Shown: positions 5,394 through 39,040 of the stretch, in pieces
Position numbering within the stretch: position 1 is the first letter of the stretch
Layout: each line of letters starts with the position of its first letter
The notes under the pieces: model-generated
Told to the model about the DNA's origin: nothing
Databases searched by the model: none
The model's input: the letters and a program-made list of their open reading frames with translations, nothing else
Position numbers and translations under genes: made by a program
Assembly (NCBI RefSeq): GCF_000264995.1
Contig: NW_006767437.1
Coordinates: 767,890 to 831,889, forward strand
Direction of reading: 5' to 3'
Length of the DNA: 64,000 nt
Origin: Punctularia strigosozonata HHB-11173 SS5
Lineage: Eukaryota; Basidiomycota; Agaricomycetes; Corticiales; Punctulariaceae

Positions 5394-6046
5394 GGCTGGG
5401 CAAAAGAGCTACTGGTTGATAGGTAGCTGCACGACGATGGGGATGGTAACGACCGATGCCGCGCGCCAGAACCCTCGCAGTATATACACGCAAAGGCAGG
5501 TGAGAAGTGATCGCCTAAACATTGGTGGAGCCTGACTGGGAAGGAGCATGCGTTCGTTGGCGCTTCCGGCGGCCTCCGATGACCCAGGAGGACATATTCA
5601 TGGAGTTGAATTGGTGGCTTGCGTTACACACGGACTCGTTCGGCGCCCCCAGGAGTACTTGGATTCGAGAAACGCAATGGCACTACGAGCCAAGGGTGAA
5701 TCGCGTGTGCGCCGACACCCGCGTGGGTCGAGCGCCTTCGTGGCGCCGGGCCGCCGGCTTCGGCACAAACGAGAGGCTGACTCTGTACTTTGGCTACGAA
5801 GAAGGAATCAACTGGTCTGCCATGATCAAGTGAACCTGCTGCGATCCAATTCAAACCGTTTAAGAACAGACCGTGTCGGCAACTTAATAGAAGAATCGAA
5901 GGTCGCCCGTGCTACTAACTACTATGGATACAGCACAGGAAGCTCTATATAGTGCAAACGGGGTTAAGGTATATTGGTACGAAACATGATGGACAGGGAG
6001 GCGACGATAACCCGACATCGCAGAATATGGCCTTGTTGAAGGGAAT
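5394..6046. promoter_or_regulatory. Spacer: CHAT promoter side and APN2 3' flank
   Basis: No gene is convincing here. The left part contains a TATA-like TATATA (5481-5486) suitably placed for the minus-strand CHAT gene. An open frame at 5522-5833 on the plus strand lacks an ATG start at its left end and any family motif, and I regard it as chance. Confidence 0.4.
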
Positions 6047-8289
6047 TTATTGCGCTGCTTGACGCGACGCTTCCCTTTTTACCTCGCTCGCCCATTTGAA
6101 AAAATTGCATCTGTACTCGGGATTCACCTCTTCACGTAGGCGCTCCCCTCTTCCCTTATCGTAGCCAGGTCCGACAGGTCTGGAGAACGAAGTCCGTTAG
6201 CAACGGTGCCGAAAAACGAACATCCGAAGCGTGTTCTGACCTTGAACACAGGTAGAACGTTTTACCCTTGTTCGGCCCAGGTTTGTTCACGGTCCACTCC
6301 TTCGCCAACTCGTTGTGGACAGTGCATCTGGGCACAGGAATTGGAGCAAACATCTGAGACCAAGCAGCCTTACTCTCCGCAGCGGACCTAGGAGAACTCG
6401 CTTCACTCCGCATCACGAGACTCTGTTGCGATGCAGACAACGTCTGAGCCAACTGAAAGTCGGCATCAATTTGGTCGACATCTTGAGTTGCATCGACATC
6501 GATAACCTCTTCAGCAGGACACGGTGCATGCACGGTCGAGGATGATGCTGAACGTGACAGCGGTTGAACGTCAGGCGGACCCGGCGGAGAGGAAGTCGGA
6601 GGTTTCGTGAAGAAAGTCGATAGCTTGCTTTGCCCAGCTTTCTGTTGTTTCTTCGCCTTCTTGGTGGTAGCAGACACGCTCTCAATCGATTTTCTCTTTG
6701 TAGACGAAGGTGGGTTCGATTTAGCTACGTGTTGGGACGGGCTCGGGGGTGTGGATGTAGGAGGCAAAGACGCAACCGGGTAGCTTGTTGGCGGTGTAGA
6801 GAGAGTTGGTGCTGCGATGATCTCCTTCGGGACAGGAGCCGCTGGAGGTTCCACCGGCGTGCTAACCGGTGTGGGAACAGGCGTTGCGGTTGCAGGTGGA
6901 AGCGGCGGTGGGGCTGGCTGAGAGTTAGGAGACACGGAAGATAATGTTACACTTGTTGAAGGAGGGAGGGCTTTTCCGCCTTTGCCAAAGAAAGACGACA
7001 ACAACGTTTGCTTGCCTGAAAACTCTGGCCAGTATTTGGCTGCGAGGCGGGGTGTGACCCTGAATTGATTCATCTTCAGACTATCGCGCAACTTGATGTC
7101 CTGGCCGGGCAAGATGTCATGGCTAACAGAGACTTCAGGCTCAGTCAGCCACGCCGGAAACGCAGCACTCACAGATCCACCCATATTGGACAATGATCCG
7201 AGCCCTTGACGGACGCCTCTATATCTGCCGCTTTCACCCAGGGGAGAAGACCTGGTGTCACGAGGATATAATCAACCCGTGTCCCGTAGTTGGTCTCTCG
7301 CCCGCCAATCTTCTGATTCCAGACTGGAACAGGAATATGAGATTTCCCCATCGAGGGCGAGTGGGAAGTCGCGTACCCGTATACATCCCTTTGCGCTCCG
7401 GCCAGAAGCGCCTCAAGACGTCGATCATGAGTCCGTTGGGATCAAGCCAGTTATGGAACCATGCCCGAGCAGGATGGTCCCAGAACGTGGCGGCGTTGCT
7501 AGGAAGGTGTCCGTCGCAGTGGTCGAGCGGTGTCGCGCAAATGTTCATGTCGCCCACCACCATGACTTCCCGTCCTTCTCCGACAAGCTCGCGCACGCGT
7601 TCCTCCAGCATGAGGTGGTAATTCATTTTGAAGGGGAGTCGTGCATCGGAAGTCTCGTTGGGGCAATACACGTTGATCAACACGAAAAGGCCGAAATCAA
7701 CCATCAAGGCGCGTCCCTCGGAGTCAAGCCCGATAAGGTCAGAAGGAGTGTTTCCTTCTTCATCCGGGTAGAGCGTCATATCGTCCGCGGATGGCTTGGA
7801 GGCAGAGATGCGATCTTCCGGAGCAAGCTGAGTGTTCCCTGGCAGAGTCCCAGAAAGACCTTCCTCCGCTTTCAGTGGCATGGCGTTTTCGGAATTGGTG
7901 AATACGCCTACGCCGCTGTACCCGCCTTTGCTGACGGGGTAGGACAAAAACGCGTCATACAAGCCTGGCACGGCAACATTGCGTTCCGTGTTCGCGCGAC
8001 ATGACTTCAGTTCTATACATTCCCGTGAACTGAGGGGCGATCGGATGCATACGGAGTGCGCACCTTGAAAGCAGATGACGTCCGCATCTAGTGCCATGAG
8101 AATGCCTTCGAAGTCTTTATATGTGTTCCATCTGATACACTTCATGTTGGACTTGTTCGAGGTTACGAGGGCAAAGTAGACGCACGGGTAGTACTTTGGT
8201 AGAGTTCGTATGCCATTCTGCACGACCGATGAGATTGCTGCCAGCGCCTAAACTCACGTCCTTACGATGTTCCAAGAGACTATGCGCAT
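6047..8289 (-). CDS. APN2: DNA-(apurinic or apyrimidinic site) endonuclease 2 (APN2), EEP nuclease with GRF zinc finger
   Basis: Exonuclease III-family AP endonuclease that cleaves DNA 5' to abasic sites and trims blocked 3' ends in nuclear base-excision repair. The start reads MRIVSWNINGIRTLPKY across the first intron. Family motifs follow: CFQELKS (the catalytic Glu codon is assembled across an intron), VVGDMN, NYGTRVDYIL and SDHCPIW. After the nuclease domain (about 400 residues) comes a proline/serine-rich linker and a C-terminal zf-GRF finger (CTVH, NKGKTFYLCSRP, YRCNFFKWAS), then a stop at 6047. The linker holds two PCNA-binding (PIP) boxes, QTLLSSFF and QSKLSTFF, plus a VIDVDA stretch followed by DADFQLAQTLSASQ. 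Six introns all join conserved motifs in frame. Length about 630 residues, normal for the family. The ATG lies in a 10-bp palindrome, 8281-8290. Confidence 0.95.
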
Positions 8290-12985: not shown

Positions 12986-15900
12986 ATGTCCAAGTACGAT
13001 CACGGTAGAGTCTCCCAATTCGTGGGTGGCAACTCCCTCGAGACCGCGCCTCCCAGTCGCGTCAAGGACTTCGTCCAGACCCACGGAGGTCATACGGTTA
13101 TCACCAAGGTATATGCGTTTCGTCGGGACACATTTACGTGGCTAACAGTGCCCTTTACTCGATAGGTCCTGATTGCGAACAACGGTAGACTTCACTCTGT
13201 CTCACGGTCTAATATGGAAAGTTCCTGATGATTGATGCGTTAAGGTATCGCCGCCGTCAAGGAGATCCGCTCAGTCCGCCAATGGAGCTACGAAACTTTC
13301 GGCACAGAGCGGGCCATCGAATTCACGGTCATGGCTACGCCGGAGGACCTGAAGGTCAATGCCGAGTATATCCGCATGGCCGACCGCTACGTCGAGGTGC
13401 CCGGGGGTACCAACAACAACAACTACGCGAACGTCGAATTGATCGTCGATGTGGCTGAGCGCGCCGGTGTCCATGCTGTATGGGCCGGTTGGGGCCACGC
13501 GTCCGAGAACCCCCGATTACCGGAGAGCCTCGCCGCCAGCAAGCACAAGATAGTTTTTATCGGTCCCCCGGGCAGTGCCATGCGCAGCTTGGGTGATAAG
13601 ATCTCGAGTACGATCGTCGCCCAGCACGCCGAGGTACCCACGATGGCGTGGTCCGGAACGGGCATCACCGACACTGTCCTGTCGGAAGGCGGTTTTGTGA
13701 CCGTACCGGATGGTGCATACCAGAATGCATGCGTCACGAGCGTTGAGGAAGGCTTGGCCAAGGCGGAACAGATCGGCTTCCCGGTCATGATCAAGGCTAG
13801 TGAAGGTGGAGGAGGCAAGGGTATTCGGAAAGTCGAGAGTCCGGATGCCTTCAAGAATGCCTACAATGCTGTGATGGGCGAAATTCCAGGTTTGTTTGGA
13901 TTTCTTATTTCAATTGGGACATGTAATAACACACGATCAACAGGCTCGCCTATATTCATCATGAAGCTTGCCGGCCAGGCCCGCCATTTAGAGGTGCAGC
14001 TTCTTGCAGACCAGTATGGCAATGCCATTTCGCTTTTCGGACGTGACTGCTCCGTCCAGCGTCGTCACCAGAAGATCATTGAGGAAGCTCCTGTGACCAT
14101 CGCGAAGGAAGATACTTTTGAGCAAATGGAGCGCGCCGCTGTCCGTCTCGCTAAACTTGTCGGTTACGTGAGTGCCGGCACCGTGGAGTGTAAGTTGGAA
14201 AGGCATCGCTATTTTTACGAATCGTTGACACATATGCCTCTTTCTAGACCTATACAGTCACGGCGAGGACGTATTCTACTTCCTCGAGTTGAACCCTCGT
14301 CTTCAAGTCGAGCACCCTACCACGGAGATGGTTTCGGGCGTCAACCTACCCGCTGCCCAGCTTGCGGTCGCGATGGGCGTCCCACTCCATCGCATTCGCC
14401 ATATCCGTCAGCTGTACGGACTTGATCCCCACGGGGCCTCCGAGATTGACTTTGAAATGTCCAAGCCCGAGTCGAATCAACTGCAGCGCAAGCCGAGGCC
14501 GAAGGGCCATGTTGTCGCCGTCCGGATCACGGCGGAGAACCCAGACGCTGGCTTCAAGCCTTCGTCCGGTTCGTTGCAAGAACTCAACTTCCGTTCGAGT
14601 ACCAACGTCTGGGGCTACTTCTCCGTCGGCTCCGCCGGTGGTTTGCACGAGTTCGCCGACTCGCAGTTTGGACACGTCTTTGCGTATGGTGCCGACCGTG
14701 GCGAGAGCCGCAAGAACATGATCGTCGCGTTGAAGGAGCTCAGCATCCGTGGTGACTTCAGAACCACTGTCGAGTATCTCATCAAGCTCTTGGAGATGAA
14801 GGCGTTCGAGGAGAACACGATCACGACTGGCTGGCTGGACTCCTTGATCAGCAGCAAGCTCACTGCTGAGCGTCCCGATGCGACCCTCGCGGTCATCTGT
14901 GGAGCCGTCACGAAGGCGCACCTCGCGTCAGACGCCTGCTGGGCGGAGTACAAGCGAATTCTCGACAAGGGCCAGGTCCCTGCTCGTGATGTGCTCAAGT
15001 CCGTATTCGTTATCGAGTTCATCTATGACAACATCCGATACTCCTTCACGTGCACCCGGTCGTCCGCGACGCAGTGGACGCTTTACCTCAATGGTGGCAG
15101 GGTTCTCGTCGCTGCACGCCCCTTGGCCGATGGTGGTCTGCTCGTGCTCATGGACGGCAAGAGTCACTCCGTCTACTGGCGCGAGGAAGTTGGCGCTCTT
15201 CGCCTCATGGTGGATGCAAAGACCTGCTTGATCGAGCAAGAGAACGATCCGACACAGCTCAGGAGTCCGTCACCGGGCAAGTTAGTTCGCTTCCTCGTCG
15301 ACAGCGGCGACCACATCAAGGCTGGCGAGCCTTACGCCGAGATCGAGGTATGCTCTCAGATACATCCCTAGTGTTACCGCTGCTGACGTCTCGTTTCAGG
15401 TCATGAAGATGTACATGCCTCTCGCGGCTACTGAGGACGGTACCGTCCAGTTCGTCAAGCAAGCTGGCGTTACTCTCGAGCCTGGAGACATTATCGGCAT
15501 TTTGGCACTTGATGACCCTGCTCGTGTCAAGCACGCCAAGCCCTTCGACGGCCTTCTCCCTGATATGGGCGTTCCTAACGTCATCGCCAACAAGCCGCAC
15601 CAGCGCCTCGCCTACTGCTTGGGCGTCCTCAATGACCAGCTCGACGGCTACGATAACCTAGCCACTATGAATGCCATCTTCAAAGAGTTGCTCGATGTCC
15701 TCCATGATCCCGAACTGCCCTTTGGCGAGGTCAGTGCTATTCTGGCCACGTTCTCTGGCCGTTTGCCTCCCAAGCTTGAGGATAGCATCCGCGCCGCCAT
15801 CGAGTCTACCAAAACCAAGGGCGATGGCGCCGAGTTCCCTGCTCCCCGCCTGAAGAAGATCCTGGATCACTTCGTTCAAGATAATCTTCGGGCTCAGGAC

Positions 15901-18900
15901 CGTGCCATGTTCCGCACTCAGTTCGGTCCCTTATTCGATGTCGTGGAGCGCTACGTCGGTGGCATGCAGGTCCACGAGAAGAACACGTTGGCGCAGCTAC
16001 TGAACAAGTTCTCCGACACAGAGAAGCTTTTCGGAGGCAGCATCGAAGCCCGGGTTCTGCAGCTTCGCGAAGAATTCAAGGACGACCCGGACAAGGTCGC
16101 AGCGCTAGTGTTCAGCCACATTCAGGCGCAATGCAAGGCGAAACTCGTCATGCTCATTCTCGATTATGTCAAGTCGCGGGGCTGGCCGTCCACCGCGGAG
16201 AGTCGACTTCGTGATGCTCTGCATGCCCTAACAGCGCTTGAGACTAAGTGAGTTGGCATCGAATGCGGCATCCTGCTGGGCTGACGGTATCCTTAGATCG
16301 TCCACCAAGGTTGCGTTGAAGGCGCGCGAGGTGCTGATCTCGTCATCCATGCCATCCTATGAGGATCGTCGCGTCCAGATGGGCAATATCCTCAAGGCGG
16401 CGGTTACCAACACGTACTATGGCGAAAACGCCGGCAACAGGTAATTCGTATGCTGGTTTTGTTGGTAGTCTTGCTAATTGTGTTGTCAGGACGCCGAACG
16501 CGGACGTTCTTCGTGAGCTCACTGACTCGAGGTACACCGTGTACGATGTCCTCCCGTCGTTCTTCGATAGCTCGGATCCCTGGACCGCCCTTGGTGAGTT
16601 GTGCCTCTGATGCTGCACCTTCTCAACTAATTTGAGGATAGCCGCCTTGGAGGTTTATGTCCGCCGCGCATACCGTGCATACCATCTCCTGTCCATCGAT
16701 TACGAGGAAGGTGACGGTGCCGACGACGGTGACGACCCACACGTGGTCCTCTGGCGGTTCAACCTAGGATCGTCGCCGTCGCCGCCCTCGACGCCGCGGT
16801 ATGGCCCAGGGTAAGTTAGCTGAGTCGCCGCATCATACCTTTGCTCACATGTCCGCGGTAGTGAACTGGCTAGCCGCCGCGCAGCGTCGGTCAGCGATCT
16901 CACGTACATGATTAACCGGCATCAGTCGCAGCCTGTACGCCACGGCGCCATCGCTTCTTTCCCTAACCTTGCCGCTCTTGATCGCGGGTTTGCAAACGTC
17001 GCCTCTTTGTTGCCTCAATTCGATGCCGCCGAATACAGGGAGAAGTACGGAAACAATAGCCAGCCTCCCAACGTCCTCAACCTTGCTCTCCGTATCTTCA
17101 ATGAAGCGGACGATCTGTCTGAAGCCGCCTGGTCTGACGCTATCCAGTCTTTGATCAACAAGAACCGCAAGGTCCTGAATGAGCATGGCGTACGCCGTGT
17201 TTCCGTGCTCATCTGTCGTCCGGAGCAATATCCCTACTACTACACTCTGCGCGACATGGGCAAGTCCTGGGACGAAGAGCGTCACATTCGTAATATCGAA
17301 CCTGCACTTGCCTTCCAGCTCGAGCTAAGCCGCCTCTCCAACTACAACCTCACCCCGTGCTTCGTCGAGAGCAAGCAGATCCACATCTACCACGGTGTCG
17401 CAAAAGATAATCAGCTCGATAATCGCTTCTTCATCCGCGCACTCGTCCGCCCTGGCCGTCCTGGAGGAAATATCACCACCGCGCAGTACCTTATCTCCGA
17501 GACCGATCGCCTCGTTGCGACCACGCTCGACGCCCTCGAAGTTGTCAGTGCTCAATATCGCAACGCTGACTGCAACCACATCTTCATGAACTTCGTGTAC
17601 AACCTTCCGGTCACCTACGACGACGTTTTGGCGGCGATCTCCGGTTTCCTTGAACGCCACGGCAAGCGCCTGTGGCGCCTCCACGTCACCTCTTCCGAAA
17701 TCCGCATTGTCCTTGAGGATAAGGAGGGTAACGCGACGCCAATACGGTGCATCATCGAGAACGTATCTGGCTTTGTTGTCAATTATCACGGGTACCAGGA
17801 GATCGTGACTGATAGGGGGACGACGATCCTTAAGTCCATAGGCGAGAAGGGTCCGCTGCATCTCCAGCCGGTTCACCACCCGTACGCCGTCAAGGAGTCG
17901 CTGCAACCGAAGCGTTACGCCGCGCACATCATCGGCACCACTTACGTCTACGACTTCCCCGATCTGTTCTCCAAGGCTTTGTTCAACCTCTGGGGCAAGG
18001 CTCGCAAGGCTAACCCCGCGTTGACCTTACCGAAGAAGCTGCTTGAATCGCGGGAGCTGGTGCTCGATGAACACGATCAGTTGCAGGAAGTAGACCGTGC
18101 TCCCGGTAACAACACCTTCGGTATGGTCGGTTGGGTCTTCACCATGAGGACGCCTGAGTACCCGTTGGGACGGAAGGCGGTCGTGATCGCCAACGACATC
18201 ACCTACAAAATCGGTTCGTTTGGTCCCGTCGAAGATCAATTCTTTTACCTTGCTTCTACATATGCCCGCGAGCACGGTCTTCCTCGCATCTACCTATCTG
18301 CTAACTCTGGTGCTCGCATCGGGTTGGCCGAGGAGGCGCTTGGCCTGTTCTCAGCCGCATGGAACGATGAGTCCGCACCTGAGAAAGGCTTCAAGTACCT
18401 TTACCTCACCCGCGAGAACTTCCTCAAGCTCGAGGAGACGGCCCCCGGCGCTGTTCGTACGGAGGAGATTGAAGAGAGCGGCGAGAAGCGATACTTGATC
18501 ACAGATGTCATCGGAACGCAGGATGGTCTCGGAGTGGAGTGTTTGAAGGGCTCTGGTCTCATCGCCGGGGAGACATCTCGTGCATACGACGACATCTTCA
18601 CGATCACACTGGTTACCGCTCGGTCCGTCGGCATCGGCGCTTACCTCGTTCGCCTCGGCGAGCGTGCGGTGCAGGTTGAGGGCCAGCCGATCATCCTCAC
18701 TGGTGCGCCCGCGCTGAACAAGGTGCTCGGACGGGAGGTCTACACGTCCAACCTGCAGTTGGGTGGCACGCAGATCATGCACAAGAACGGTGTATCCCAC
18801 CTCACCGCGTCGAGTGATCTCGAGGGTGCCACGCACATTCTCGAGTGGATGTCCTACGTGCCGGCATCCAAGGGCGAGAAGCTACCCATCCTCGAGAGCA

Positions 18901-20305
18901 CGGACTCCTGGGACCGCGACATCGCCTACAAGCCGCCCAAGGGCGCGTATGACCCGCGCTGGTTCCTCGGCGGCAAAACGGACGAGGCGAACTCTGAGTG
19001 GCTCAGCGGCTTCTTCGACAAGGACTCGTTCCAGGAGACGCTCAGTGGTTGGGCGCAGACCGTCGTCGTCGGCCGTGCGCGCCTCGGCGGCATTCCGATG
19101 GGCGCGATTGCGGTCGAGACGCGGACTATCGAGCGCATCGTGCCCGCAGACCCGGCGAACCCATCCTCGTTCGAGCAGCGGATCATGGAGGCTGGCCAGG
19201 TGTGGTACCCCAACTCGGCGTACAAGACTGCGCAGGCGATTTTCGACTTCAACCGTGAGGGCCTGCCGCTGATCATCTTCGCCAACTGGCGTGGTTTCTC
19301 CGGTGGTCAGCAGGACATGTACGACGAGGTGCTCAAGCAGGGCTCGAAGATCGTGGACGGCCTGTCGAGCTATAAGCAGCCCGTGTTTGTGTACATCGTA
19401 CCGAACGGTGAGCTGCGTGGTGGCGCGTGGGTCGTGCTCGACCCGAGCATCAACGCTGAGGGACGTATGGAGATGTACGCCGACGTCGAGGCGCGCGCGG
19501 GTGTGCTGGAGCCTGAGGGCATCATCGAGATCAAGATGCGCAGGGACAAGATCCTCACGCTCATGGAGCGGATGGATGCTACTTATGCCCAGCTCAAGCG
19601 GGATAGCAAGGACCCCAGCAAGAGCGCCGAGGAGAAGGCGCAGGCGGCTGAAGCGCTTGCCAAGCGCGAGCAGTTCTTGCAGCCTACCTACAAGCAGATC
19701 GCGCTCTTGTACGCCGACCTTCACGAGTAAGTGCCCACGAGATATGGTAGTTGAATTGGCTACTGACACGATTGTCAGCCGTACCGGTCGCATGGAGGCG
19801 AAAGGTTGTGCCAAGCCGATGGTGTGGAAAGATGCTCGTCGGCGCTTCTACTGGCGCGTGCGCGCCCGGCTCGCTTATAGCGCCGCGCTCGAGAAGCTCG
19901 CGCAGGCGTCGCCCATCTCGACGCACGAGTACCGCACGCGTCTGCTGGACACGTTGAGCCAGATCAATGACCTGCCTGACGCGCGCGCGCAGGCGGAGGC
20001 GCTTGAGCAGCTCGACCTCGCGCCGACGCTGAGCCAGCTCAAGGCGGACGCGGTCGCGAAGCGGCTCCTCGACGTCGGCCGGGACGACCGCAAGGCGATG
20101 GTGAGCGGCCTTGCGAAGATGGTGGACAACCTCACGGCGGACGAGAAGGAGGCACTGCGCGCCGCGCTGGCGAGTCAGGGACGGAGTCCTGGTCAGTTCC
20201 CGTTTCGCGCCCCTGCCCCGTTCACTTCTCTGCTTGGTGTTTTGTCCCCGGTCAGGACGCTGATATCATTTTCGTTCAGGCCCTCCGAGTTATGAGACTG
20301 CATGA
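12986..20305 (+). CDS. ACC1: Acetyl-CoA carboxylase, multifunctional eukaryotic type
   Basis: Cytosolic enzyme that makes malonyl-CoA from acetyl-CoA, bicarbonate and ATP, the committed step of fatty-acid synthesis. About 2,230 residues, full family length. Order: biotin carboxylase ([20 protein letters not shown], the ATP-grasp glycine loop [29 protein letters not shown]); biotin carrier domain (EVMKMYMP, biotinyl lysine codon at 15406-15408, directly after an intron); the long central domain; carboxyltransferase ([30 protein letters not shown]). About 11 introns, all joining in frame; most of the carboxyltransferase is one exon from about 16.86 to 19.73 kb. The second coding exon (13166-13184) is a 19-nt micro-exon. 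The last intron (about 20192-20277) gives the end [15 protein letters not shown] chosen because the homologous region starts at [15 protein letters not shown]. Confidence 0.97.
13166..13184 (+). other. ACC1: 19-nt micro-exon of ACC1
   Basis: Bounded by acceptor GATAG and donor GTAGAC. It encodes VLIANN plus the first base of the next glycine. The residues are part of the invariant start of the biotin carboxylase domain, so the exon must be included in the mRNA. Confidence 0.9.
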
Positions 20306-22096: not shown

Positions 22097-22265
22097 GAGT
22101 TCTTTCCCCATCAAAAACTCGGACTTACATATGGACTCTACGGACACATGTACTAGCGCACTGTAATGGCTCTTGTAAACATTCGTCGTAGCAATATGAA
22201 CAAAACGCTGCCTTGCAGACGAAATGCCGCTATATGCCGTGGCAAGCAACTCCATCGCCGAAACG

Positions 22266-23990
22266 ATGTCCGGTCTTCCGCCACAACCACCACCACCACC
22301 GTCAGAACCGTCGCAGACCGCCCTCACCACCCCGGCAACCGATGCCCTCCTCGAGCCGCTGAACGACCTCCAATCCCTTGCGCACACCCTATTCGCCTCG
22401 CTCTCCCCCGCGCACACCAAGCCCCCGCCCGCGCCGCCGCTCACAGCCTTCCTCGATGCGGACGCGCGGCTCGCGGACGCCGTCGCGCTAGCGCGCGTGC
22501 ACCAGGCCCGCCAGCGCCGGATCGAAGCGCTCAAGGCCGACATCGGGAGGCTCGACGCGCGCTGGCGCGATATCTGCGCCGAGCTGGAACGCGGGCGGAG
22601 GGAACTCGAGGCGGCGATCGAGGAGGGCGAGGTGCGCGTCCGCGCCATGCAGAAGGCGAAGGACGGTACGTCTTGTGCCCTTTTGCCCCCCCCCCCCCCC
22701 CCCCCCCCCNNNNNNNNNNNNNNNNNNNNNNNNNNNNNNNNNNNNNNNNNNNNNNNNNNNNNNNNNNNNNNNNNNNNNNNNNNNNNNNNNNNNNNNNNNN
22801 NNNNNNNNNNNNNNNNNNNNNNNNNNNNNNNNNNNNNNNNNNNNNNNNNNNNNNNNNNNNNNNNNNNNNNNNNNNNNNNNNNNNNNNNNNNNNNNNNNNN
22901 NNNNNNNNNNNNNNNNNNNNNNNNNNNNNNNNNNNNNNNNNNNNNNNNNNNNNNNNNNNNNNNNNNNNNNNNNNNNNNNNNNNNNNNNNNNNNNNNNNNN
23001 NNNNNNNNNNNNNNNNNNNNNNNNNNNNNNNNNNNNNNNNNNNNNNNNNNNNNNNNNNNNNNNNNNNNNNNNNNNNNNNNNNNNNNNNNNNNNNNNNNNN
23101 NNNNNNNNNNNNNNNNNNNNNNNNNNNNNNNNNNNNNNNNNNNNNNNNNNNNNNNNNNNNNNNNNNNNNNNNNNNNNNNNNNNNNNNNNNNNNNNNNNNN
23201 NNNNNNNNNNNNNNNNNNNNNNNNNNNNNNNNNNNNNNNNNNNNNNNNNNNNNNNNNNNNNNNNNNNNNNNNNNNNNNNNNNNNNNNNNNNNNNNNNNNN
23301 NNNNNNNNNNNNNNNNNNNNNNNNNNNNNNNNNNNNNNNNNNNNNNNNNNNNNNNNNNNNNNNNNNNNNNNNNNNNNNNNNNNNNNNNNNNNNNNNNNNN
23401 NNNNNNNNNNNNNNNNNNNNNNNNNNNNNNNNNNNNNNNNNNNNNNNNNNNNNNNNNNNNNNNNNNCCCCCCCCCCCCCCGTCCTCCCTACCTCTGCTTT
23501 GCGACGATATGCTGACGATCGTCGGTCGCGCGCAGCGGCGGTCCCGTACCCGGAGCTGCTCTCGTACGCGCAGGCGATCAGCGCGTTCACCTCCGCGCCG
23601 CCCAACATGCCCGCGCTCGCGCCGGGCCAGCCGCCCCCGCCGCTCTTCTTCCCGCCCTTTCCTAATGAGGAGAAGATGCGCCGCGGGCGGATGAACGCTG
23701 AGGCGCCGTTAGGGATCCTTGGCGAGACACACTCTGTTGGACGACGTGAGTATTCCCTCACCCCCCCCCCTTCCTTGTGCTATCTATGCCCTCTCCCTCC
23801 TCCTTTTTGTTTTCTTTTAGCCGTTACCGTTACTGATCGTTGGTTTATGTGTTCAGCACCGACTGCGTCTCCGCCAAAGCAGGCGGATCAGCTCCCCGCG
23901 ATGGGCCACGGAGCGAATCCGTATCGACCAGAGCAGCGGCCCCCGCAGCAGGTTTTCGACCTCGACTTGGATCTCAATCCCGATTTGTGA
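22266..23990 (+). CDS. MED4: Mediator complex subunit 4 (interrupted by assembly gap)
   Basis: Mediator middle-module subunit that links activators to RNA polymerase II. Exon 1 (22266-22665) encodes a proline-rich start (MSGLPPQPPPPPSEP), then a long coiled coil (RQRRIEALKADIGRLDARWR and following). After the intron the Med4 signature appears: VPYPELLSYAQAISAFTSAP, then PPLFFPPFPNEEKMRRG. The last exon ends with the acidic DLDLDLNPDL typical of Agaricomycete Med4. The upstream in-frame ATG at 22224 is possible, but the 22266 ATG fits the family start better. The first intron runs 22666-23535 and contains a 757-N gap; its true length is unknown. The second intron (from 23747) carries another poly-C run. 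Confidence 0.88.
   Translation: MSGLPPQPPPPPSEPSQTALTTPATDALLEPLNDLQSLAHTLFASLSPAHTKPPPAPPLTAFLDADARLADAVALARVHQARQRRIEALKADIGRLDARWRDICAELERGRRELEAAIEEGEVRVRAMQKAKDGTSCALLPPPPPPPPXXXXXXXXXXXXXXXXXXXXXXXXXXXXXXXXXXXXXXXXXXXXXXXXXXXXXXXXXXXXXXXXXXXXXXXXXXXXXXXXXXXXXXXXXXXXXXXXXXXXXXXXXXXXXXXXXXXXXXXXXXXXXXXXXXXXXXXXXXXXXXXXXXXXXXXXXXXXXXXXXXXXXXXXXXXXXXXXXXXXXXXXXXXXXXXXXXXXXXXXXXXXXXXXXXXXXXXXXXXXXXXXXXXXXXXXXXXXXXXXXXXXXXXXXXXXXPPPPVLPTSALRRYADDRRSRAAAVPYPELLSYAQAISAFTSAPPNMPALAPGQPPPPLFFPPFPNEEKMRRGRMNAEAPLGILGETHSVGRREYSLTPPPSLCYLCPLPPPFCFLLAVTVTDRWFMCSAPTASPPKQADQLPAMGHGANPYRPEQRPPQQVFDLDLDLNPDL
22686..23480. other. Assembly gap (757 N) flanked by poly-C tracts
   Basis: 24 C residues at 22686-22709, N from 22710 to 23466, then 14 C residues at 23467-23480, all inside the first MED4 intron. 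The assembly seems to have stopped in a C homopolymer from both sides. Confidence 0.97.
23761..23770 (+). repeat. Poly-C tract in the second MED4 intron
   Basis: A run of ten C just after the donor of the next MED4 intron. A third run of eleven C lies at 24271-24281, downstream of the gene. All runs are C on the MED4 coding strand. Confidence 0.9.
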
Positions 23991-24899: not shown

Positions 24900-26450
24900 T
24901 CATGCCGCCACCGCCGCCCGTATCGCCTGCGTCTTCACGCCCGCCTCCTGCAGCGCGACCTCAAACGCCTTCAGATGTTCCTCCACCAGTTTCCGCCCGT
25001 CCACCCTCCGCACCACGATCCGGCCGTTCAGGTTCCCGGGCGACATCGGCGCCGGCGCCGGCGCCTCGCCTCCCGCCCCGTCCGCCGGCAAGCCCGCCTC
25101 CCAGCGCTCGATGCGCGCGCGGCTGCGCTCCGCGCCCTCCGCCTCCGCGCGCCACTCGCCGAGCCGGTTCTTGAGCGCGCGCAGCTTGCGGCCCGCGTCC
25201 GTCGTCAGCGCGCCGTTCACCTGCGCCTGTTCCGACACGGTCGCGAGGGACGTCACGAGCGAGGCCGTGAGCGTGCGCGTGTGCACGAGGTGGGGGAGCG
25301 CGGTGCGGGCGGTCGGTGGGCCCGTCACCGGGGGCGCCGGAGGCACCGGGTCTTCTTTGAGGGTGGTGAGGGGTGATGTGGGCGAGGACGGCTCGGCGTC
25401 CGAGTCGGCGTCCAGCGCGTCGTCCAACGAGTGTTCGTCCGGTTCGGTCTCCCACTCTTGCGAGGCTTCCTCCTGCAATGCCAGGAGCTTCTCCACCACG
25501 GGCGAGCGAGGCCGGGCCGCTTCCGCCGTCGCCGCCGACGAAGATGATGGTAGGTCGAGCCCCTCCAGTATCTCGAGCTCGTCTAGCTGCGCGAGCACCT
25601 CCTCTCCGCCGATCTCGCCGCCGATCTTGCGCAGCTCGCGCTCGTACTCGAACAATGAGCGGACTTGGCCTTCGCGGTCGCGGGCAGCCTCGTCCATGTG
25701 CCGGATCATGCCCGCCGCAGCGCGTTCTAAAGCAGGGGTATGATGCGCGCCTGCGGGGGCGTCGGAACCGGCATCGAGGATGCGCAGCGCGGAGAGAAAG
25801 GCGGAGGTAGAAGCTAGGTCGGCGGTGAGGACCGACATCGGGTCCTGTTGTGGTTGTTGATGATGATGTCTTCGGTTCCGTGGCCGGGAGGGGGTCTGTG
25901 TTGGACTTGGCGAACCGAACGAGGCGTCGGGGGACGCGTCGAGTCCTAGTTCAGATGCGAAGGAGGGAGATGTTGGCGGTAGTTCGTGTTCGTTCTCTTG
26001 ATCGACACGCGACGGCCCTCCGCCCCCGAACACGTCGTCCATAGACACCGACACGGACGGCGGCGTGGCCGCGCCGGCGTCGCGTGCGTGCGCTGCATCG
26101 ATCGGCGGCTCCTCGTCGATGCCCTCCGCGCCCTCGTCGTAGTCGATCCCGAACTCCTCCGCAAGCAGCTTCGAGCCGGCGCTGGGCTCGGGCATGAGCG
26201 CCGCCGCGAGCTCGTGCGCGAGCGAAAACTGGCCGCTGCCGCCGCTTGCTGCTCCGTCTACGCCGCCACCCATCGCGTCGGCGAGGCTCGAGGATGCGCC
26301 GCGTAGGGACACACTCGAGCGCGTGCCATTCGGGCGCAGGCTCTGGCGCGAGGGCGACCTGCGCGTCGCCATCTTGGCAGGAGAAAGGAACTTGCTGCCG
26401 CCGCCGTCGCTCGGGCCGCCGAACATGTCGTCCTCGTCGTAGTTGGCCAT
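24900..26450 (-). CDS. Unrecognised acidic, disordered/coiled-coil protein
   Basis: A single open frame of 516 residues from an ATG at 26448-26450, apparently intronless, which is unusual in this window. The N-terminal 200 residues are low complexity and acidic (MANYDEDDMFGGPSDGGG; many Ser, Pro, Asp, Glu; a HHHQQPQQ patch). Two blocks look structured: SLAHELAAALMPEPSAGSKL with EEFGIDYDEG, and helical stretches around ERAAAGMIRHMDEAARDREG and LDELEILEGL. The C-terminal part is a predicted coiled coil (TLTASLVTSLATVSEQAQVN, LRALKNRLGEWRAEAEG) followed by a helix LVEEHLKAFEVALQEAG. I recognise no domain. Strong codon bias for G/C third positions and the long uninterrupted frame support a real gene. 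It is divergent from the dynactin gene, 204 bp apart. Confidence 0.75.
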   Translation of the reverse strand: MANYDEDDMFGGPSDGGGSKFLSPAKMATRRSPSRQSLRPNGTRSSVSLRGASSSLADAMGGGVDGAASGGSGQFSLAHELAAALMPEPSAGSKLLAEEFGIDYDEGAEGIDEEPPIDAAHARDAGAATPPSVSVSMDDVFGGGGPSRVDQENEHELPPTSPSFASELGLDASPDASFGSPSPTQTPSRPRNRRHHHQQPQQDPMSVLTADLASTSAFLSALRILDAGSDAPAGAHHTPALERAAAGMIRHMDEAARDREGQVRSLFEYERELRKIGGEIGGEEVLAQLDELEILEGLDLPSSSSAATAEAARPRSPVVEKLLALQEEASQEWETEPDEHSLDDALDADSDAEPSSPTSPLTTLKEDPVPPAPPVTGPPTARTALPHLVHTRTLTASLVTSLATVSEQAQVNGALTTDAGRKLRALKNRLGEWRAEAEGAERSRARIERWEAGLPADGAGGEAPAPAPMSPGNLNGRIVVRRVDGRKLVEEHLKAFEVALQEAGVKTQAIRAAVAA

Positions 26451-26654
26451 GGCTTAGTCTGTAGCGAGGGCCCGCGTCGTCGCGCGCGATGACGAAGGGA
26501 ACGTAGCCGAGGCCGGGTCACGGTGGCAGGAGATGGTGTGGACCCGCCCTGCCAACGCGTCGCGACCCAGATTGGTTATCACATTCCCACGCCCCCTTCA
26601 GTCGCGCTCGCCGCAGCCGACGACGCCGAAGCGCTTAGCTCGACGCCGACGGCA

Positions 26655-28219: not shown

Positions 28220-31200
28220 TTAATCGCGGGCGACCCAGTCGTTGCTCCGCGCGACGAGCTCGATGGAGTTGTCGATCGTCCAGAACAGCCGCTCGGTCGC
28301 GCTGCGGCCACTCCACGCCTTCTGGTCGCGAAGGATCATAGCCTACGAACAAGCGAATGAGCTTCAAAGGAGACGAGAAAGAGTACACAACACCTCACCT
28401 GCTGCGCGCCAAAGTTGCGCTGGTCGTGCCCGAACAGGTCGACGTTGTCCTCGAGCGCCTCCGCGAGGATCTGAAGGTCCTGCAGCATCGCCTGTATGCA
28501 CCTCACGCACGACAGCGTCAGGATCTCGCGGCGGTTCCGGATCGAGCCCGCGCTCGGCGCGGGCAGCGTCTGCGTCACGCTCTGGAGCACGGTGTGCAGC
28601 ACGCGCTTCGTCTCGCCGAGGATCGTCTGCGCTTGAGGGTAGTTCTTCCGCGACACGAGCACGAGCGCGCGCGTGATCATGTCCGACGTCAGCAGCTCCA
28701 TCCGCCGACGGACGATCACCGGGTCGGACGCGCCGCTCGGCGTGCGCGGGCGTCCGCCAGGCGTCGCGGGCAAGAGCGTGATCGTGAGCAGAACGGGGTG
28801 CGTGAGGCGGGAGACGTGCCGGGCCGCGTTCGGATCGAAGAACGCGCCGTCGACCTCGAACACCGGCACCTCGTCGATCATCCGGTCCATCGTCGCGTCC
28901 GCAAGGTCGGCCGCATCCGCGCCGATCGCGAGCGCGTCGAGCCCCATCCGCGCCACGAACTCGTCCGTCGCGTTCAGGTGCCGCGCGCCGCCATGGCCGC
29001 CGCCGCCGCCGCCGTACTGAGGGCGGATGAGCTCCGAGTTGTCGAGCTCGAGTTCGACGAGGATCTCCTTTCGCTCGCCGTAGCGGAGCTCGCCCACGTC
29101 GATGTCGACGTGCTTCCCGTCCGAGCTCACGATCGCCTGCGGCCCGCCGGAAACCTTGCGAATCTGGAACCGGTTCCCGTCCACGATCTTGAAGTGGAGT
29201 TTCATGTTGGTGATGCCCATCGACATCATCCCGCCGACGCAGCCCGCGACACAATCCCTGAGGTCGTACCAATCCCGCACGAACGTGTACGTCCCGCTCG
29301 TGTGGTTCGACATCAGCCAGAGCGAGGCCGGGTCGTGCGAGCGACCGTAACCGAGCGAGTGGATGGGCACGTTCGCCGCCTCCGCTCGAGCGAGGACGAG
29401 GTCCATCTGCGCCCGGCGGGTCGTTTCTGCCGCGTCGCTGATCAGGATCATGCCCGACACTGGGTTGCGCGCCTTGCGCTGCAGCACGACGTCAAGGCCT
29501 GAGCAAGATTTGAAACGACCGTCAGCAAAGTATGCACCCGAGTGCGTCTCAGGTACGCGTACCGTGATTGACCGCGGTCACCACATCCGTCTTCTCATCC
29601 TTCGACCCTCGCACCAAAAACTCGTCCTCGCCCTGACCCTCTTCCCATCGCATCCCGATCTCGTCCACAAACTTGCTCAGCCTCGCCCGGCTCTGCGTCC
29701 TGCCCACGCACAAGAACGGCGTCTTGCGCACCCTGCCGCCGACGCCGACCTCGAACGTGACCAAACTCAGACGGTCCTTCGCGCCCAGGCTGGCGATGAT
29801 AAAGTCGAGCGTGGCCTTGATGACGCGCACCTTGAGCGCGGCCGTGCTCGGGACGGCGCTCGGCGGAGGGAGGGAGACGACGAGGATGAGGTCCAGATGC
29901 GGGTGCTGTAGCGGGGTGAGCGAGTTGCTCGGGCCGGCGCTGAGGTGGGGCGTGACGAGCGCGGCGTGTCCGTCGTCGTACGCGCCCGCGCCGAGTTCCT
30001 CGTCCTCCGCGAGCGCGGCGAGCTTGGTAGCGCCGTACGGCCCTTGCGCCTGTGAAGAAGCCGCGTGCGGGGCGTGGGATGATGAGCCAGAGCCGTGGGA
30101 CGTAGACGAAGACATGGTCGAGCGCTGCGAGCCGCCCTTGAGCAGGCTGTCGACCGTGCTCACCGTCGTCGCCGTGCTCCCGGAGAGCATGCGCGCCGCC
30201 TTGGCGCTCCCGCCGAACTCCTCCAGGTCCGGCTGCTGGCCCGGATACGGCGGCTGCGGCTGCGGCGCCGGCGGGAGCTGTTGCTGCTGCTCGCGGTGGA
30301 AGAGCGCGACGAGCTCCTGGATGTGTGCTTTCCACGTCTCGAGCGAGGAGCGGTCGCGGAAGACGAGGATGAACGAGTCCAGCCGCTCGTCCTCCATGTC
30401 GATCGTCAAGCTCAGCTCGCCCGCTACGCTTGTGTCCGTGACGCGCCGGATGTGGCGGATGAAGATGCGGCCCTTGAGCCGGAGCACGCCGCGGGTGGCG
30501 CTCGCGGGCGCGGGCGCACCGCCCTCGGCGACGCCAGTGAGGAAGCGCCCGAGCGAGCGCTTCTTCTCCTCCGAGACGCAGATGATGGCCTCCTTGAAGA
30601 GGTAGACGTAGAACTCGCGCACGAGCGCGTCGCGCCGTACGGAGAGCAGGTCGTACATCTGCAGCGGGCCGAGCCCCTCCGGCGAGTGGCCCTTCCAGTC
30701 GACGATCCGCGCGCGGAGGTCGTCGGTGATCGCCGCGAAGGGGGAGTCCTCGTCCGAGTAGATGATGCTGCTCGCCGTGCCGCCTCCGGGGGAGTAGAGC
30801 GCGGTCTCGCCCGCGTCGCTGTATTGCGACTGGTGCGGGGACTGCACGAGCGCCTGCGACTGCTGCTGGGGGCTCATCGGGCTCTGCTGCTGGTAATTGT
30901 GCGACTGCTCCGAGGGCGAGCGCATCCCGTCCGGGTGCGGGGAGGACTGCGCCGAGTACGCGGTCTCGTGCCTCAGGTGGCCGTTGCGCGAGGGCGGGGC
31001 AGCGGGGTAGCCGACGTTCATGCCGACGCCGTCCTGCGGCGCGGGACCCGGCACCGCGCCCGGGCGGCGGCGGCCGGGGAGCTCGACGACGACGATGCAG
31101 GTGAGCGGCTGCGTGGCCTGGTCGGTGGCGCGCGTGATGGACGCGAATTCGGGCCGGACCTGGATCGAGGGCGCGACGACGTAGTGCGCGTGCTCGGCGG

Positions 31201-32136
31201 AGCTCGCGGTCTTGACAGAGCCCGCGTGGTGGTCGAGCGGATCGTCTTGCGTGGGGTCGTAGGGCGCGGGCGCGGGCTGGCCGTTCCGCCGCGCGCCGCC
31301 GCGCATGGAGCCGGGCGTCTCGCGGCCTGGGTAGAGCGAGGTGTTGCGATCGCCCATGCCGGTGAGCGCCGCGAGTTCTGGGCAAGAACCGTCAGGATCA
31401 GCGTTTTCCTTTCCTCGTGCGGATGGGTACGCACTGTTGGATTTTCCACCGTCTCCATCACCGACTTTCATGGTCCTTCGGCATACGCCACATACGCCGA
31501 GGTTGGCTTTTCGGATGGCGCGTTGGCCGGGCGGGGGTCCATAGACTGCTGTAAAGCACGCCTTGTATGCGCATATATATGAGCATATATTGCGGGGAAG
31601 TAAAACTCAGATCCGCATCGACCGACCTCGTGAAGCGCGTGCCCACATTCGGGTACTATATGTGGTTTCTCGCCAGGGAGCCTGAAGCTGAAGCTGAGCG
31701 GTTCGAGGCAGACCGGGCATTCCGCCTCCTCGTCCTCGTCCCTGTGGCCGGACACGACCGGCAGCGGTGCAGGCATGACGGAGTACGGATGGAGCTTGTC
31801 GCCGGTGAACGACGCCGAGTCGGCGACGACGGACGATGAGGCTGTGTAGGCGGAGCGCAGGGAAGCCGTCGACGGGGCGCGGGGCGGCGGACGGCGAAGA
31901 AACGCGGGCTGGTTCTGCGGTGGGGGCGGTGGGGGACGCGGGGCGGAGCGGGGCGCGGTGTAGGCGGAGGGGGGGAGGACGGGGCGGGAGGAGGAGGTGG
32001 TGGAGGTGGAGGTGAGATCACCAGGGGCCAAAGCCGGGAGCGCTTCCTGATGATGGACGTCAGACGGCTGCCTGTGCGTGCGGAACGAGAACGGGCTGTG
32101 CGACTTTGCCCAGCTCGACGCGGACGAGGGCGCCAT
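28220..32136 (-). CDS. RING-H2 / PH / VWA-like protein, Far1/Ste5-type architecture
   Basis: About 1,230 residues. After a Ser/Pro-rich start comes a RING-H2 finger: CPVCLEPLSF, the GEKPHIVPECGHALHEACF block joined over an intron, then CGVCRRTM, giving C3H2C3 ligands. A long disordered Gln/Pro-rich linker follows. A PH domain spans roughly residues 450-610 (VREFYVYLFKEAIICVSEEK, LRLKGRIFIRHIRRV, DSFILVFRDRSSLETWKAHI). Then comes a VWA-like domain (LDLILVVSLPPPS, KDRLSLVTFEVGV, MILISDAAETTRRAQMD, NVPIHSLGYGRSHDPASLW). The end is RSNDWVARD. Domain order and RING spacing are those of yeast mating-pathway scaffolds Far1/Ste5, so a signalling-scaffold role is inferred. The metal-binding DxSxS of VWA is absent. 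Three introns. The ATG at 32136 is the simplest start; an upstream exon is possible. Confidence 0.82.
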
Positions 32137-34361: not shown

Positions 34362-36363
34362 TTATTGCCGCTTCTCCGTCGCGGCCAGCACCGCGTTCCT
34401 CAGCGCGCCCGCCGCGACGTTGCCCAGAGCCCCGCCGAGTATCTCCGCCGTCCTCACCGCGTTCGTCGCTCCGCTCACCGCGTCCGCCGCCGTACCCATC
34501 GCCCACTTCCACGCAGCCCCTTGGCCCGAGTCTGTCCAACATATGCGCGTCATGAGTTTGATATGCACAGTACCAGAAAGAGAACGGATGCGCGTACCGG
34601 TGACGTCCGCGCCGGCAGAACGCATGACGACGCCCTTGAGCGTGTCGAGCTCGTTCAGCACCTCGAGCCCCGTCGAGCGCGCCCACACGACGGGCGCGGC
34701 AGTGGTCGAGTACAGCTTGTGAAGCTTGTCGACGGCGGACATGACTTTGTGATTCTCAAAGTACCGTTCCCGCGCGTAGGGCATCAACGCCGTATAGGCC
34801 CCTGCATCGAGCCGTCAGCGACCCCATAACAGCAGGGTTGACTAGCACACACACCGATATCCCCGCCGCGCGAGGCGGCTGCGATGATGCACCGCGCGAG
34901 CGCGTCGACGTCGCCCAGGCCGAGGTTGAGCCCCTGCCCCGCGAGCGGGTGCACGGTGTGTGCCGCATCGCCGACGAGGACCGTGCGCGCGCCGGCGCCC
35001 TCGCCGAGGTAGGCGTCCGCGTGGTTATAGCGCAGCGGGAAGGACGCGACGGTGCCAGGCTGGACGGACGTGATCAGGGGCGGGAGCGCCCCGGCGTCCG
35101 CGGGCGGGATGCCCTCGTCGGTGACGAGCGATGAGGCGGAGGCGTAGGCCGAGTGCGGGTCGACGCCGTGCGAGGCCTCCCGCCACGCGATCTCCGCCTT
35201 GAGCTCCTCGGCGCCGAGCGGCGCCGCGGGCTCGAGCAGCCGCGCGTGGAGGTAGCGCATCGAGCGCTCCGGCAGGCGAAACGCGGCGTTCACCATGCTG
35301 GCGAACCCGTCCCCGTCGAGCGCTTTGAGCGCCTGCGCGAGCGCGGGCGTCGTGCTCCACACCAGGCTCGCGGCCGTGTCCGAGAGCGGGAGGAACGCGA
35401 CGGGGCCGGTGGGCAGGAATCGCTGGTACGCGGTCGAGTTCGTCGGCGGGCGGCGGAAGGGCGAGAGCGGCGGGTGACGCAGCGTCGCCACGACAGCGTG
35501 GGTCGGGTACGCCCAGCCGGTGGAGGTGATGCGCGCGTACGCGCGCACGGGCGAGTTGAAGCCGTCTGCGCCGACCTGGACAGGGGGTCAGTGAGGCGCC
35601 GTCAGGAGGAAGGGGCGCGCACGCACGAGCAACCGGGCGCGGAGGCGCCGGCCGTCGGAGAGGTGCACAACCGGCCAGCCGCCGCCCTCGATATCGTCGG
35701 GCGAGATGCGCTCCACGCGCACGCCGTCGGCAAGCTCGACCGCGGGCGTCTGCGCAAGCCGGTGGAGGAGCGCACGCTGGATGTTCAGGTTCTCAACGAG
35801 CGTGGCCATCCCGCCAAGCGGTGATAGGCCCGCCTCGGCGGCATCGAAAGTGATCCGGGCGTCCGACAACCCGTCCCACACCTATGACGGACGAGATGAG
35901 CTCGAACAGAGGGGGTTAGTAGAGCGTGTGCGCACCTGCATCGCTTCGATGGGCATTGTCCTCGTCGTGTCTACAAGTGACCATGCCCCTATGCGCTCCA
36001 AAAGCGATTTGCTTGCGTTTGTGATGGAGCTGACCCTGTTCGAGAACTCGGACGGGCCCATGGTCCATTCACGAATCTTGGACAGGCTGCCAGCCTCGAC
36101 GAGGACGACCTTATGCGACGCTCGTACGACATCAGACGTCCCTAGCACCGAGCTTGGTTAACAGACGGTTGATGGCAAGATATGCCAAGGCGCAACATAC
36201 CTAGAGCAGTCGCGAGCGCGAGACCAGCCGGTCCTCCTCCGACGATGACCACGTCGCATTCTTCGTGAGGCGCGCTGGTTGACGTGGACGCGCATCGGCA
36301 CGAGAGGACCGTTCGCCGTCGTAAGGCGAGGCCCCTCGTCGAAAGACGAGCTGCTCGTTGCAT
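34362..36363 (-). CDS. COQ6: Ubiquinone biosynthesis FAD monooxygenase COQ6, mitochondrial
   Basis: Flavin-dependent hydroxylase of the coenzyme Q pathway, acting on the ring in the mitochondrial matrix-side CoQ synthome. The start (MQRAARLSTRGLALRRRTV) is an Arg-rich presequence. The dinucleotide fold follows at once: CDVVIVGGGPAGLALATALG. Later family blocks: WTMGPSEFSNRVSSITNAS, RIGAWSLVDTTRTMPIEAMQ, ISPLGG-like AGLSPLGGMATLVENLNIQ, and the FAD/ribityl motif VLVGDAAHTVHPLAGQGLNL. The end, LGNVAAGALRNAVLAATEKR, lies about 20 residues past the expected helical tail. About five introns. It diverges from SEC6 with only 149 bp between the start codons. Confidence 0.93.
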
Positions 36364-36512: not shown

Positions 36513-39040
36513 ATGGCAGCCGCCGCGACGCTCTCAGCACCGACCATGTCCGCCGCCCAGGCTGTGGGCGAGTACCTGCAGTCCCCGGAAGACCTGCTCA
36601 AGATCGCCGCATTTCGCAAGCGACTCGAGAAGGAGAAGGCGTCCATCGACGCTCGTCTCCAGGCCGGCGTCAAGGACCAACTCGACGCGACCCGCACTGG
36701 GCTACGAAAGCTTTTCGGGACGCGAAACAATGTACAGGCTCTGCGCGATGAGATGGAAACTATCGATAGAATGTCGAGCGACCCCAAGAATGTCGTCCGG
36801 ACGTTCGACCAGATCAGCAGGGTGCGCATGTCTCGATCGTCTGCCATTTGCTGCTCTCTGACACAATACGTGCTCTGCTTAGGTGTCTATGGTCCATCGT
36901 AACTTTGAGCAGACCGAAGAGATGGTCTCCAACCTACTCGCCATGTCTGCCCAGCTCGATCGGCTAGAGCGCCTCCTCGACGCCGATCGTGCCGACCTTC
37001 TTGGCGGCTCACCCAACCTGCTCGCCATCCACTTGCAACTTAATCAACTCGAGGCGTTCCGCAACCAGACGCTGCACCAGGCGAAGAAGGCCTCAGCACA
37101 GTCGCGCGACACGCTTAATAAGTGGTTCGAACGCCTCAACCGCTTGATCGAGGCTTTCGATGAATATATGTTCGCACTGGCCGCCAACGTATTACCTCTC
37201 GTACGCGCGGGACATCCCGAGGTCATCGTCAAGCTTGTCAAGATTGCCGAGATTGAGGGACGCGAAGACGAGAAGGTGGGACAGCATCAATTATCACATA
37301 GACCAACCCGAATGACACTTCGCGCCCTCTACTGCAGGCGATCGCGATTCGCCTCGTCAAGAAAGCCGCCAAGATGGACGCCGCGTCCAAGTTCAAGTCG
37401 ATGCAGGCCAACGCGCGCCTCATCAAGCACTACCGCTCCAAGATCACAAAGGCGATCACGGACGAAATCAAGCGCAAGTTCACCGCCGCGTACGAGCAGG
37501 ACGAGCGCGACCCGGGCGCGTTCCTCGACGGGCTCGGTAAATGGCTCTATCGTGACCTGATTGTGATCGAGGAGGAGGTCGTGCCGTGCTTCCCGCCCGA
37601 GTACGATATACACTCCCTCTTCGTGCGCGAGTACCACCGCGCGCTCAATACGACGCTCAAGCGCCTGATCGAATCCGCGCCCGAGGCCAGCGTGCTGCTC
37701 GAGCTTCACGGCTGGATCAAGGAGTACAAGAAGAACATGCAGGAACTGAGCGTACCGCCGGAGCTCCTCGAGCCACCATTGCTCGACGGCAAGGAGCAGT
37801 CGCTTATCGACGATTACCTCCAGCTCATCGTCGCCAAACTCGACGAGTGGTCCGCGAACCTGATGAAGACCGAGGTCGAGGCATTCACCACCCGCGCGGA
37901 ACCGCCCGAAGTCGATGGCGACGGGTTGTACGGAACTCAGGGCGCCGTCATCCTCTTCCAGATGGTTAACCAGCAGTGCGACCTCGCGATAGAGTCTGGC
38001 CAGGGACTCATCCTCGCACGCGTGATTGGGGACGTCAACAGGGTCATGCGGAGTATACAGAGCCAATGGGTCAAGGTGATCGACGTCGAGCTTAAGCGCC
38101 ATGTCGAGAAGCCCGAGGAAAGCCCCGATGGGCTGGTGGAATACCTTATCGCCCTCGCAAACGATCAAATCAAGTCCGCGGATTACGCAGAGGCGCTCAG
38201 CGGCCGACTCGAACCACTGGTCTCGCAGGTACTCTTTGTCGATGCCCATCCTACAGAAGTGACCCTAACGACATTGCAGAAATATAGCACACAGATCAGC
38301 GAAAAGCTTAATGACGCGATTGACGGTTACCTCGACGTGGCCAAAAAGTGCACGCAGACGCTGATAGACATCATCTTCACTGATCTGAAGTCCGCCGTGC
38401 GGAAACTCTTCCAGGCCGAGTGGTATGACGGCATCGCTGTGCAGATCGTCGAGACCATGCGCGACTACACGAACGACTACCAAGAGTACCTCAACCCGCA
38501 GTTGCTCGAGATCCTCGTCGAGGACCTGCTCGAGCACTTCCTCGTCACATACATCACGGCGCTGGGCAATGCGAGCAAGCTTCGTATGCCAGCAGCGACA
38601 AACCGGATCAAGGACGACGTGAGCGCGGCGTTTGGCTACTTCGCGACGCTCAAGCCGCCGAAGGAGCTTGAGGTCAATTTTGAGGTACTGGAGATGATCC
38701 TCGCGATGCTTGAGGCGTCGAAGAGCCTCGTGTTCCTCTCTTATTGGCAATTCGCCAAGGTCCACGGCCCGAACCTGGCGTTCGTGGAGGGGCTGATGAG
38801 GGCGAGGGGGGACTTCGATCGCAGTGCGGCAAACGAGGTGATGGATAGCATACGAAGGAAGGTGAAGGAAGAGAATCTGACGGATCGTGCGTACATCTCC
38901 TCGTGGTTCCTTCGAGCTGTTGCTGATGGAAATCGTCAGCTCCGGAACCGACGATCATGAAGAAGGTAACCGTGCAAAGCACGTTCTCCAAGATTGTGAA
39001 CGCTGCATCAGCGGTTTCCGCGTTCCGGTCAGGAGTCTGA
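36513..39040 (+). CDS. SEC6: Exocyst complex component Sec6
   Basis: Subunit of the octameric exocyst that tethers secretory vesicles to the plasma membrane before SNARE fusion. About 765 residues. The N-terminal block EYLQSPEDLLKIAAFRKRLE, KEKASIDARLQAGVKDQLDA and TFDQISRVSMVHRNFEQTEE match Sec6. The C-terminal helical bundle includes WIKEYKKNMQELSVPPELLE, FQMVNQQCDLAIESGQG, and EKLNDAIDGYLDVAKKC. Four introns: after QISR, after GREDEK, a 51-nt in-frame one at about 38230-38280 (homology joins LVSQ to KYSTQ), and one near 38889-38939 that leads to the true end TIMKKVTVQSTFSKIVNAAS. The single open frame read through that last intron gives a false end at 38960. Confidence 0.93.

Follow-up and report, generated by a model that had tools for sequence, protein, structure and literature searches.

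Gene Model and Surrounding Genes

Joining of open frames in the 64-kb window, the whole stretch of DNA from Punctularia strigosozonata that was analyzed, gave a minus-strand gene for a RING/PH/VWA protein that runs from an ATG at 32136 to the end of a stop codon at 28220, and the coordinates given in the initial annotation (28220–32136) agree with this model. The spliced coding sequence of 3732 nt yields a protein of 1243 aa and is divided into 4 exons by three GT-AG introns of 65, 64, and 56 bases, with the frame open throughout. Judged from the sequence, the gene is real and its predicted model looks intact. Its parts are as follows.

28220..32136, minus strand: probable Far1-like/Fmp1-type gene; exons 32136-31627, 31561-29563, 29498-28399, and 28342-28220; 1243 aa
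31481..31719, minus strand: RING-H2 finger, residues 140-197; C3H2C3 by reading; split by the first intron (31626-31562)
30320..30676, minus strand: PH domain (PF15411, PH_10), residues 466-584; Pfam match, related to the PH domain of a Cdc24-like gene of the genome
29233..29905, minus strand: VWA domain, residues ~723-925; Pfam models matched over their C-terminal half; interrupted by intron two of three (29562-29499)
28220..29205, minus strand: C-terminal region, residues 935-1243; no Pfam match; strands and then helices in a low-confidence model

An extra 88-base GT-AG intron at 31465–31378 was also considered and was rejected because the frame is lost, with a stop after 321 codons.

Close to this gene lie those for the Mediator subunit Med4 (22200–23987, plus strand) and the exocyst protein Sec6 (36883–38957, plus strand), a 517-codon open frame (24903–26453, minus strand) with no Pfam match at E ≤ 0.001, and a portion of a gene of the FAD-binding monooxygenase type (FAD_binding_3; 34787–35587, minus strand). 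Elsewhere in the window, an acetyl-CoA carboxylase gene, with domains from biotin carboxylase to carboxyl transferase, occupies 13244–19727 on the plus strand. The minus strand also carries a CHAT domain (1932–2750), with a weakly TPR-like frame at 3216–5408, an endonuclease/exonuclease/phosphatase domain next to a frame that codes for a GRF zinc finger (6159–8247), together probably an Apn2-like gene, and a Methyltransf_28 gene in two frames (56057–57762).

RING, PH, and VWA Domains of the Predicted Protein

Pfam was run on the whole protein and then on domain pieces cut out by hand, with the cut-offs of the models applied. The matches place a RING finger (models at ~139–199), a PH domain, and a VWA domain (models at 825–918) in this order in one protein, as in the Far1-like proteins of filamentous ascomycetes and as had been proposed from the sequence. 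On the whole protein, the RING and VWA models scored below their cut-offs, so that PH_10 alone passed there; when the pieces were scored by themselves, one model for each of these two domains passed as well. No match to the protein was returned by an NCBIfam search.

All eight ligands of a C3H2C3 RING-H2 finger can be read (CPVC at 140–143, E-P, GEK, CGH..H..C at 164–172, and CGVC at 194–197), which bears out the spacing first described for this gene (CxxC.EP, GEK, CGH..H..C, CxxC). Two exons code for the finger, and the 65-base intron separates its second His (169) from Cys 172, the sixth ligand. The zf-RING_UBOX model scored 21.6 bits on the whole protein (E 2.2e-4), below its cut-off of 25.2, and 27.0 on the hand-cut piece (E 4.4e-6), where it passed; zf-RING_5 and zf-RING_2 remained below cut-off on this piece. 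PF12906, another RING type, has two matches elsewhere in the genome, of which no use was made.

For comparison with yeast, working sequences of Ste5 and Far1 were used, of which the Ste5 VWA stretch alone was checked against PDB chains. The Punctularia RING scored 70 against the Ste5 RING and 58 against the Far1 RING of this set, and in neither case did any of 1000 shuffles score as high. Because shuffling destroys the Cys/His pattern, other RINGs of the same genome were used as controls, namely all 28 of the 28 listed zf-RING_2 matches, scored against both yeast RINGs. The controls were translated unspliced, which favors the Punctularia gene, and taken as the best of six frames, which favors the controls. 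Against Ste5, the Punctularia RING came first of 29 with a modest margin (70, the next 61), as would be expected of a Ste5-type RING, and against Far1 it came second of 29 (58 versus 63). The RING therefore lends modest support to kinship with Ste5/Far1. Genome searches with the two yeast RINGs returned no match and missed the Punctularia gene itself; they are uninformative because its RING is split by an intron.

PH_10 matched the whole protein with 90 bits (cut-off 27.5, E 1.8e-25) and the PH piece with an E value of 4.6e-27. A profile search of the genome gave three exon matches to this family in two genes, the one described here and another on contig C3. The latter ends in a PB1 domain, as does Cdc24, and is called Cdc24-like here because PH_10 and PB1 are both present; no RhoGEF match was found in the one upstream frame that was tried. 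The PH domains of the two genes are clearly related, with an alignment score of 168 as against a maximum of 49 in 1000 shuffles. Similarity to the Ste5 PH domain was marginal (score 42, reached by 11 of 1000 shuffles), and the Far1 PH domain gave no significant match, its score being reached by 118 of 1000 shuffles. A model of the PH piece built without an alignment had a mean pLDDT of 43.8, too low to rely on; the best 28 Foldseek matches listed for it were all chains of GRK2 (E ≤ 0.001, TM by query 0.40–0.46, rmsd >11), a kinase that binds G-beta-gamma via its PH region, and nothing was concluded from them.

On the whole protein, VWA_3 and VWA each scored 20.5 bits, against cut-offs of 27 (E 5.5e-4) and 23.8 (E 6.2e-4), respectively. 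On the hand-cut piece, VWA passed (24.6 versus 23.8, E 3.3e-5), and VWA_3 stayed below its cut-off (E 1.6e-5). In both models, the match is limited to the C-terminal half; the N-terminal half (residues 723–775), including the strand DRLSLVTF, is VWA-like by eye only. At the usual site of the VWA metal-site motif DxSxS, VVSLPPPSA is found by eye; the motif is absent, and classic metal binding by this domain is therefore unlikely. With the Ste5 VWA domain (3FZE/4F2H) there was no sequence similarity (752 of 1000 shuffles as high), so by this measure the domain is not of the Ste5 type, and phmmer searches of the PDB with the whole protein and the VWA piece gave no Ste5 chain among the matches listed. 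Against Far1, 49 of 1000 shuffles scored as high as the VWA region; the aligned stretch is located after the VWA domain, and pairwise comparison found no similarity to Far1 within the VWA proper. As far as its sequence goes, the VWA domain does not support kinship with Ste5 or Far1.

The C-terminal region (residues 935–1243) had no Pfam match at E ≤ 5. Its secondary structure is read from a model that was built from one sequence and takes in most of exon 3, with a confidence too low to rely on (mean pLDDT 40.9). For the idea, since dropped, that this region corresponds to the Vwaint domain of VWA proteins, no Pfam match was found, and PF14624 matched nowhere, controls included.

Copy Number and Pheromone Pathway Families in the Genome

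As a whole, the protein scored 70 against Ste5, a score reached by none of 200 shuffles (shuffle maximum 68), and its score against Far1 was exceeded by 3 of 200; both matches run through the RING. When residues 434–1243 were searched against the genome, the locus itself was recovered together with a weak match (E 2.8e-7) to the PH domain of the Cdc24-like gene. No second copy of these residues was found in the genome, and the gene appears to be single copy. To our knowledge, each basidiomycete genome holds one Far1-like/Fmp1 gene, and Cote et al. are said to have described, in mBio in 2011, a single Far1-like protein in basidiomycetes and filamentous ascomycetes. No relatives of the protein were found in the viral and prokaryote collections.

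Several other families of the pheromone pathway could be found in the genome. For STE3-type receptors, 25 exons were matched; those listed all lie on contig C12, between 141735 and 199840, and some contain internal stops. The Ste11/Byr2-type domain Ras_bdg_2 occurs in one place, the Ste12-type domain STE in two, and G-gamma is represented on contig C9 by a pair of exon matches separated by 1.5 kb. The gene described here is on contig C5, a contig different from that of the receptors. The dense cluster of STE3 exons (C12:141735–199840), which is in keeping with a basidiomycete, is a likely mating-type receptor locus, and one of the Ste12-type loci lies ~40 kb from it. The two Ste12-type loci (C3:2341059 and C12:240142) are 96.7% identical over ~1835 bases of the stretches compared, either through a recent duplication or as an effect of assembly.

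Relation to Known Scaffolds and Possible Function

The initial annotation had proposed a Far1/Ste5-like protein that could be the scaffold missing from descriptions of basidiomycete pheromone pathways, or an ancestor-like form. The available text of PMC9790007 describes Fmp1 (CNF00230 / CNAG_07699) of Cryptococcus as a protein with PH, RING, and VWA domains and with orthologues in Ascomycota and Basidiomycota. When it was deleted, almost no cell fusion was left in either of two Cryptococcus species; for Neurospora, a defect in perithecia is reported; and a fragment of residues 735–1690 bound the MAPK Cpk1 in vitro (PMC9790007). Fmp1 and the Punctularia protein have in common that all three domains are found in one basidiomycete protein, and they differ in length, Fmp1 being the longer to judge from the fragment used; they are likened by description, not by sequence.

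In layout, the protein also resembles BcFar1 of Botrytis, which has 1173 aa, four introns, a RING at 134–186, a PH domain at 428–566, and a VWA domain at 632–812 (PMC4010548), compared with 140–197, 466–584, and ~723–925 in the 1243 aa and three introns described here. BcFar1 differs in coming from an ascomycete and in that its deletion gave no significant phenotype, the data not being shown there (PMC4010548). The Far1-like proteins BcFar1, NCU07565, and AN5167 of that paper also resemble the Punctularia protein, again by description, in domain order and short introns. "Far1" has 0 occurrences in the searched text of PMC9790007. NCU07565 is named there as the orthologue of Fmp1 and in PMC4010548 as the ortholog of Botrytis Far1, and as it is common to both, Far1-like proteins and Fmp1 would therefore form a single family under two names. 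The kinship of the Punctularia protein to Fmp1 and BcFar1 is drawn from architecture and reported positions, not from an alignment or tree, and the protein is to be called Far1-like by architecture.

With the yeast proteins, the likeness is partial. Far1 of Saccharomyces cerevisiae shares the RING-PH-VWA layout and the RING ligand pattern, with a RING score of 58, but convincing similarity does not extend to its PH and VWA domains (scores reached by 118 and 49 of 1000 shuffles). A Far1 in the strict sense would also inhibit a Cdk and bind Cdc24. Ste5 shares the RING pattern C..C.EP, GEK, and CGH..H..C and a marginally similar PH domain, but its VWA domain has no sequence similarity. The Fmp1 authors regard Ste5 as either a remote relative of Fmp1 or no homologue of it, and describe Ste5 as confined to Saccharomycotina (PMC9790007). 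Of the proposed Far1/Ste5-like identity, the domain order, the first rank of the RING among 29 against Ste5, and the several other pathway families in the genome speak in its favor, whereas the sequence comparisons give no support to a strict Ste5, given the dissimilar VWA; Far1-like or Fmp1-type fits better as a name than Ste5.

The remark that a Ste5 is usually left out of accounts of basidiomycete pathways does apply to some papers, the available text of PMC4239118 restricting Ste5 to budding yeast and its relatives and that of PMC9296135 giving the Cryptococcus cascade as Ste20, Ste11, Ste7, Cpk1, and Ste50 only, but basidiomycete members such as Fmp1 are in print. Since these two papers and PMC13144348, according to which few species have had scaffolds described, omit or restrict scaffolds, the earlier impression can be explained; nothing decisive on the scaffold question was found in the available text of PMC5578929, PMC6382970, PMC3744442, PMC6887120, and PMC7295950. 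The idea of a missing scaffold is not supported: basidiomycete members have already been published, one of them with a mating defect and in vitro MAPK binding (PMC9790007). This kind of scaffold is already known in basidiomycetes; the annotation of the gene is sound, but the gene is no missing link.

The gene is probably the single Far1-like (= Fmp1-type) pheromone pathway scaffold of P. strigosozonata, on the grounds of architecture and domain positions. It is possible, if unlikely, that the protein instead has the strict Far1 function of a polarity scaffold, joining G-beta-gamma to Cdc24/Cdc42 so that growth is directed, while the MAPK would regulate it and not be its cargo. Members of the PH_10 family turned up in just one further gene of the genome, the Cdc24-like one, with the high pairwise score given above, and yeast Far1 connects G-beta-gamma to Cdc24, Bem1, and Cdc42 (PMC4010548); a common PH family is, however, no proof of binding, the effects of losing Fmp1 are like those of losing the MAPK cascade, with the genes affected being mostly those affected by Cpk1 (PMC9790007), and the bcfar1 deletion showed no polarity phenotype (PMC4010548). 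It is improbable that the protein is a RING-type ubiquitin ligase by which the pathway would be regulated through turnover and not through the holding of kinases. The complete C3H2C3 ligand set, the Val in CPVC and the Arg after the last Cys, which are positions used by active ligases, and the occurrence of RING and VWA together in ligases would suit such an activity. Against it stand the RING models under cut-off on the whole protein and the action of Fmp1 as a pathway component, with no ligase activity of Fmp1 mentioned in the available text of PMC9790007.

Very improbable, finally, is an unrelated RING/PH/VWA protein that has converged on the Ste5/Far1 layout. Such an origin could account for a VWA domain unlike that of Ste5 or Far1 in sequence, for the markedly different VWA structure predicted for Fmp1 (PMC9790007), and for a RING only second among 29 against Far1, but the same RING reached 70 against Ste5, where the other 28 reached at most 61, and the three domains of BcFar1 have the same order and similar places (PMC4010548).

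If the gene encodes a Far1-like/Fmp1-type scaffold, pheromone acting on the STE3-type receptors would free G-beta-gamma, and binding of the latter by the RING-H2 region would bring the scaffold to the plasma membrane, with the PH domain helping. The VWA region and neighboring linkers would hold the MAPK module of Ste11/Ste7/Fus3-type kinases (Cpk1 in Cryptococcus), and the signal would thereby reach transcriptional output and cell fusion. For P. strigosozonata, all of these binding steps are inferred, as is the binding of G-beta by any basidiomycete protein of the family. The gene structure, the domains, the lack of a detected second copy, and the presence of some partner families in the genome were obtained here, and the need for mating and the in vitro MAPK binding were reported for the relative Fmp1.

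The present analysis adds one more gene model, a clean one, for a basidiomycete pheromone scaffold and links the names Far1-like and Fmp1. A bolder reading, which we consider quite unlikely, is that basidiomycetes keep an ancestral state in which a single protein is the scaffold of the MAPK module and of the Cdc24/Cdc42 module alike, a task later split between yeast Ste5 and Far1. Its PH domain, of a family found in this genome only here and in the Cdc24-like gene, would be a physical trace of the link, either as a copy of the PH domain of the exchange factor that it positions or as a partner to it. If this were true, mushrooms would be a place to study the state that preceded the division between MAPK signaling and polarity in yeast.
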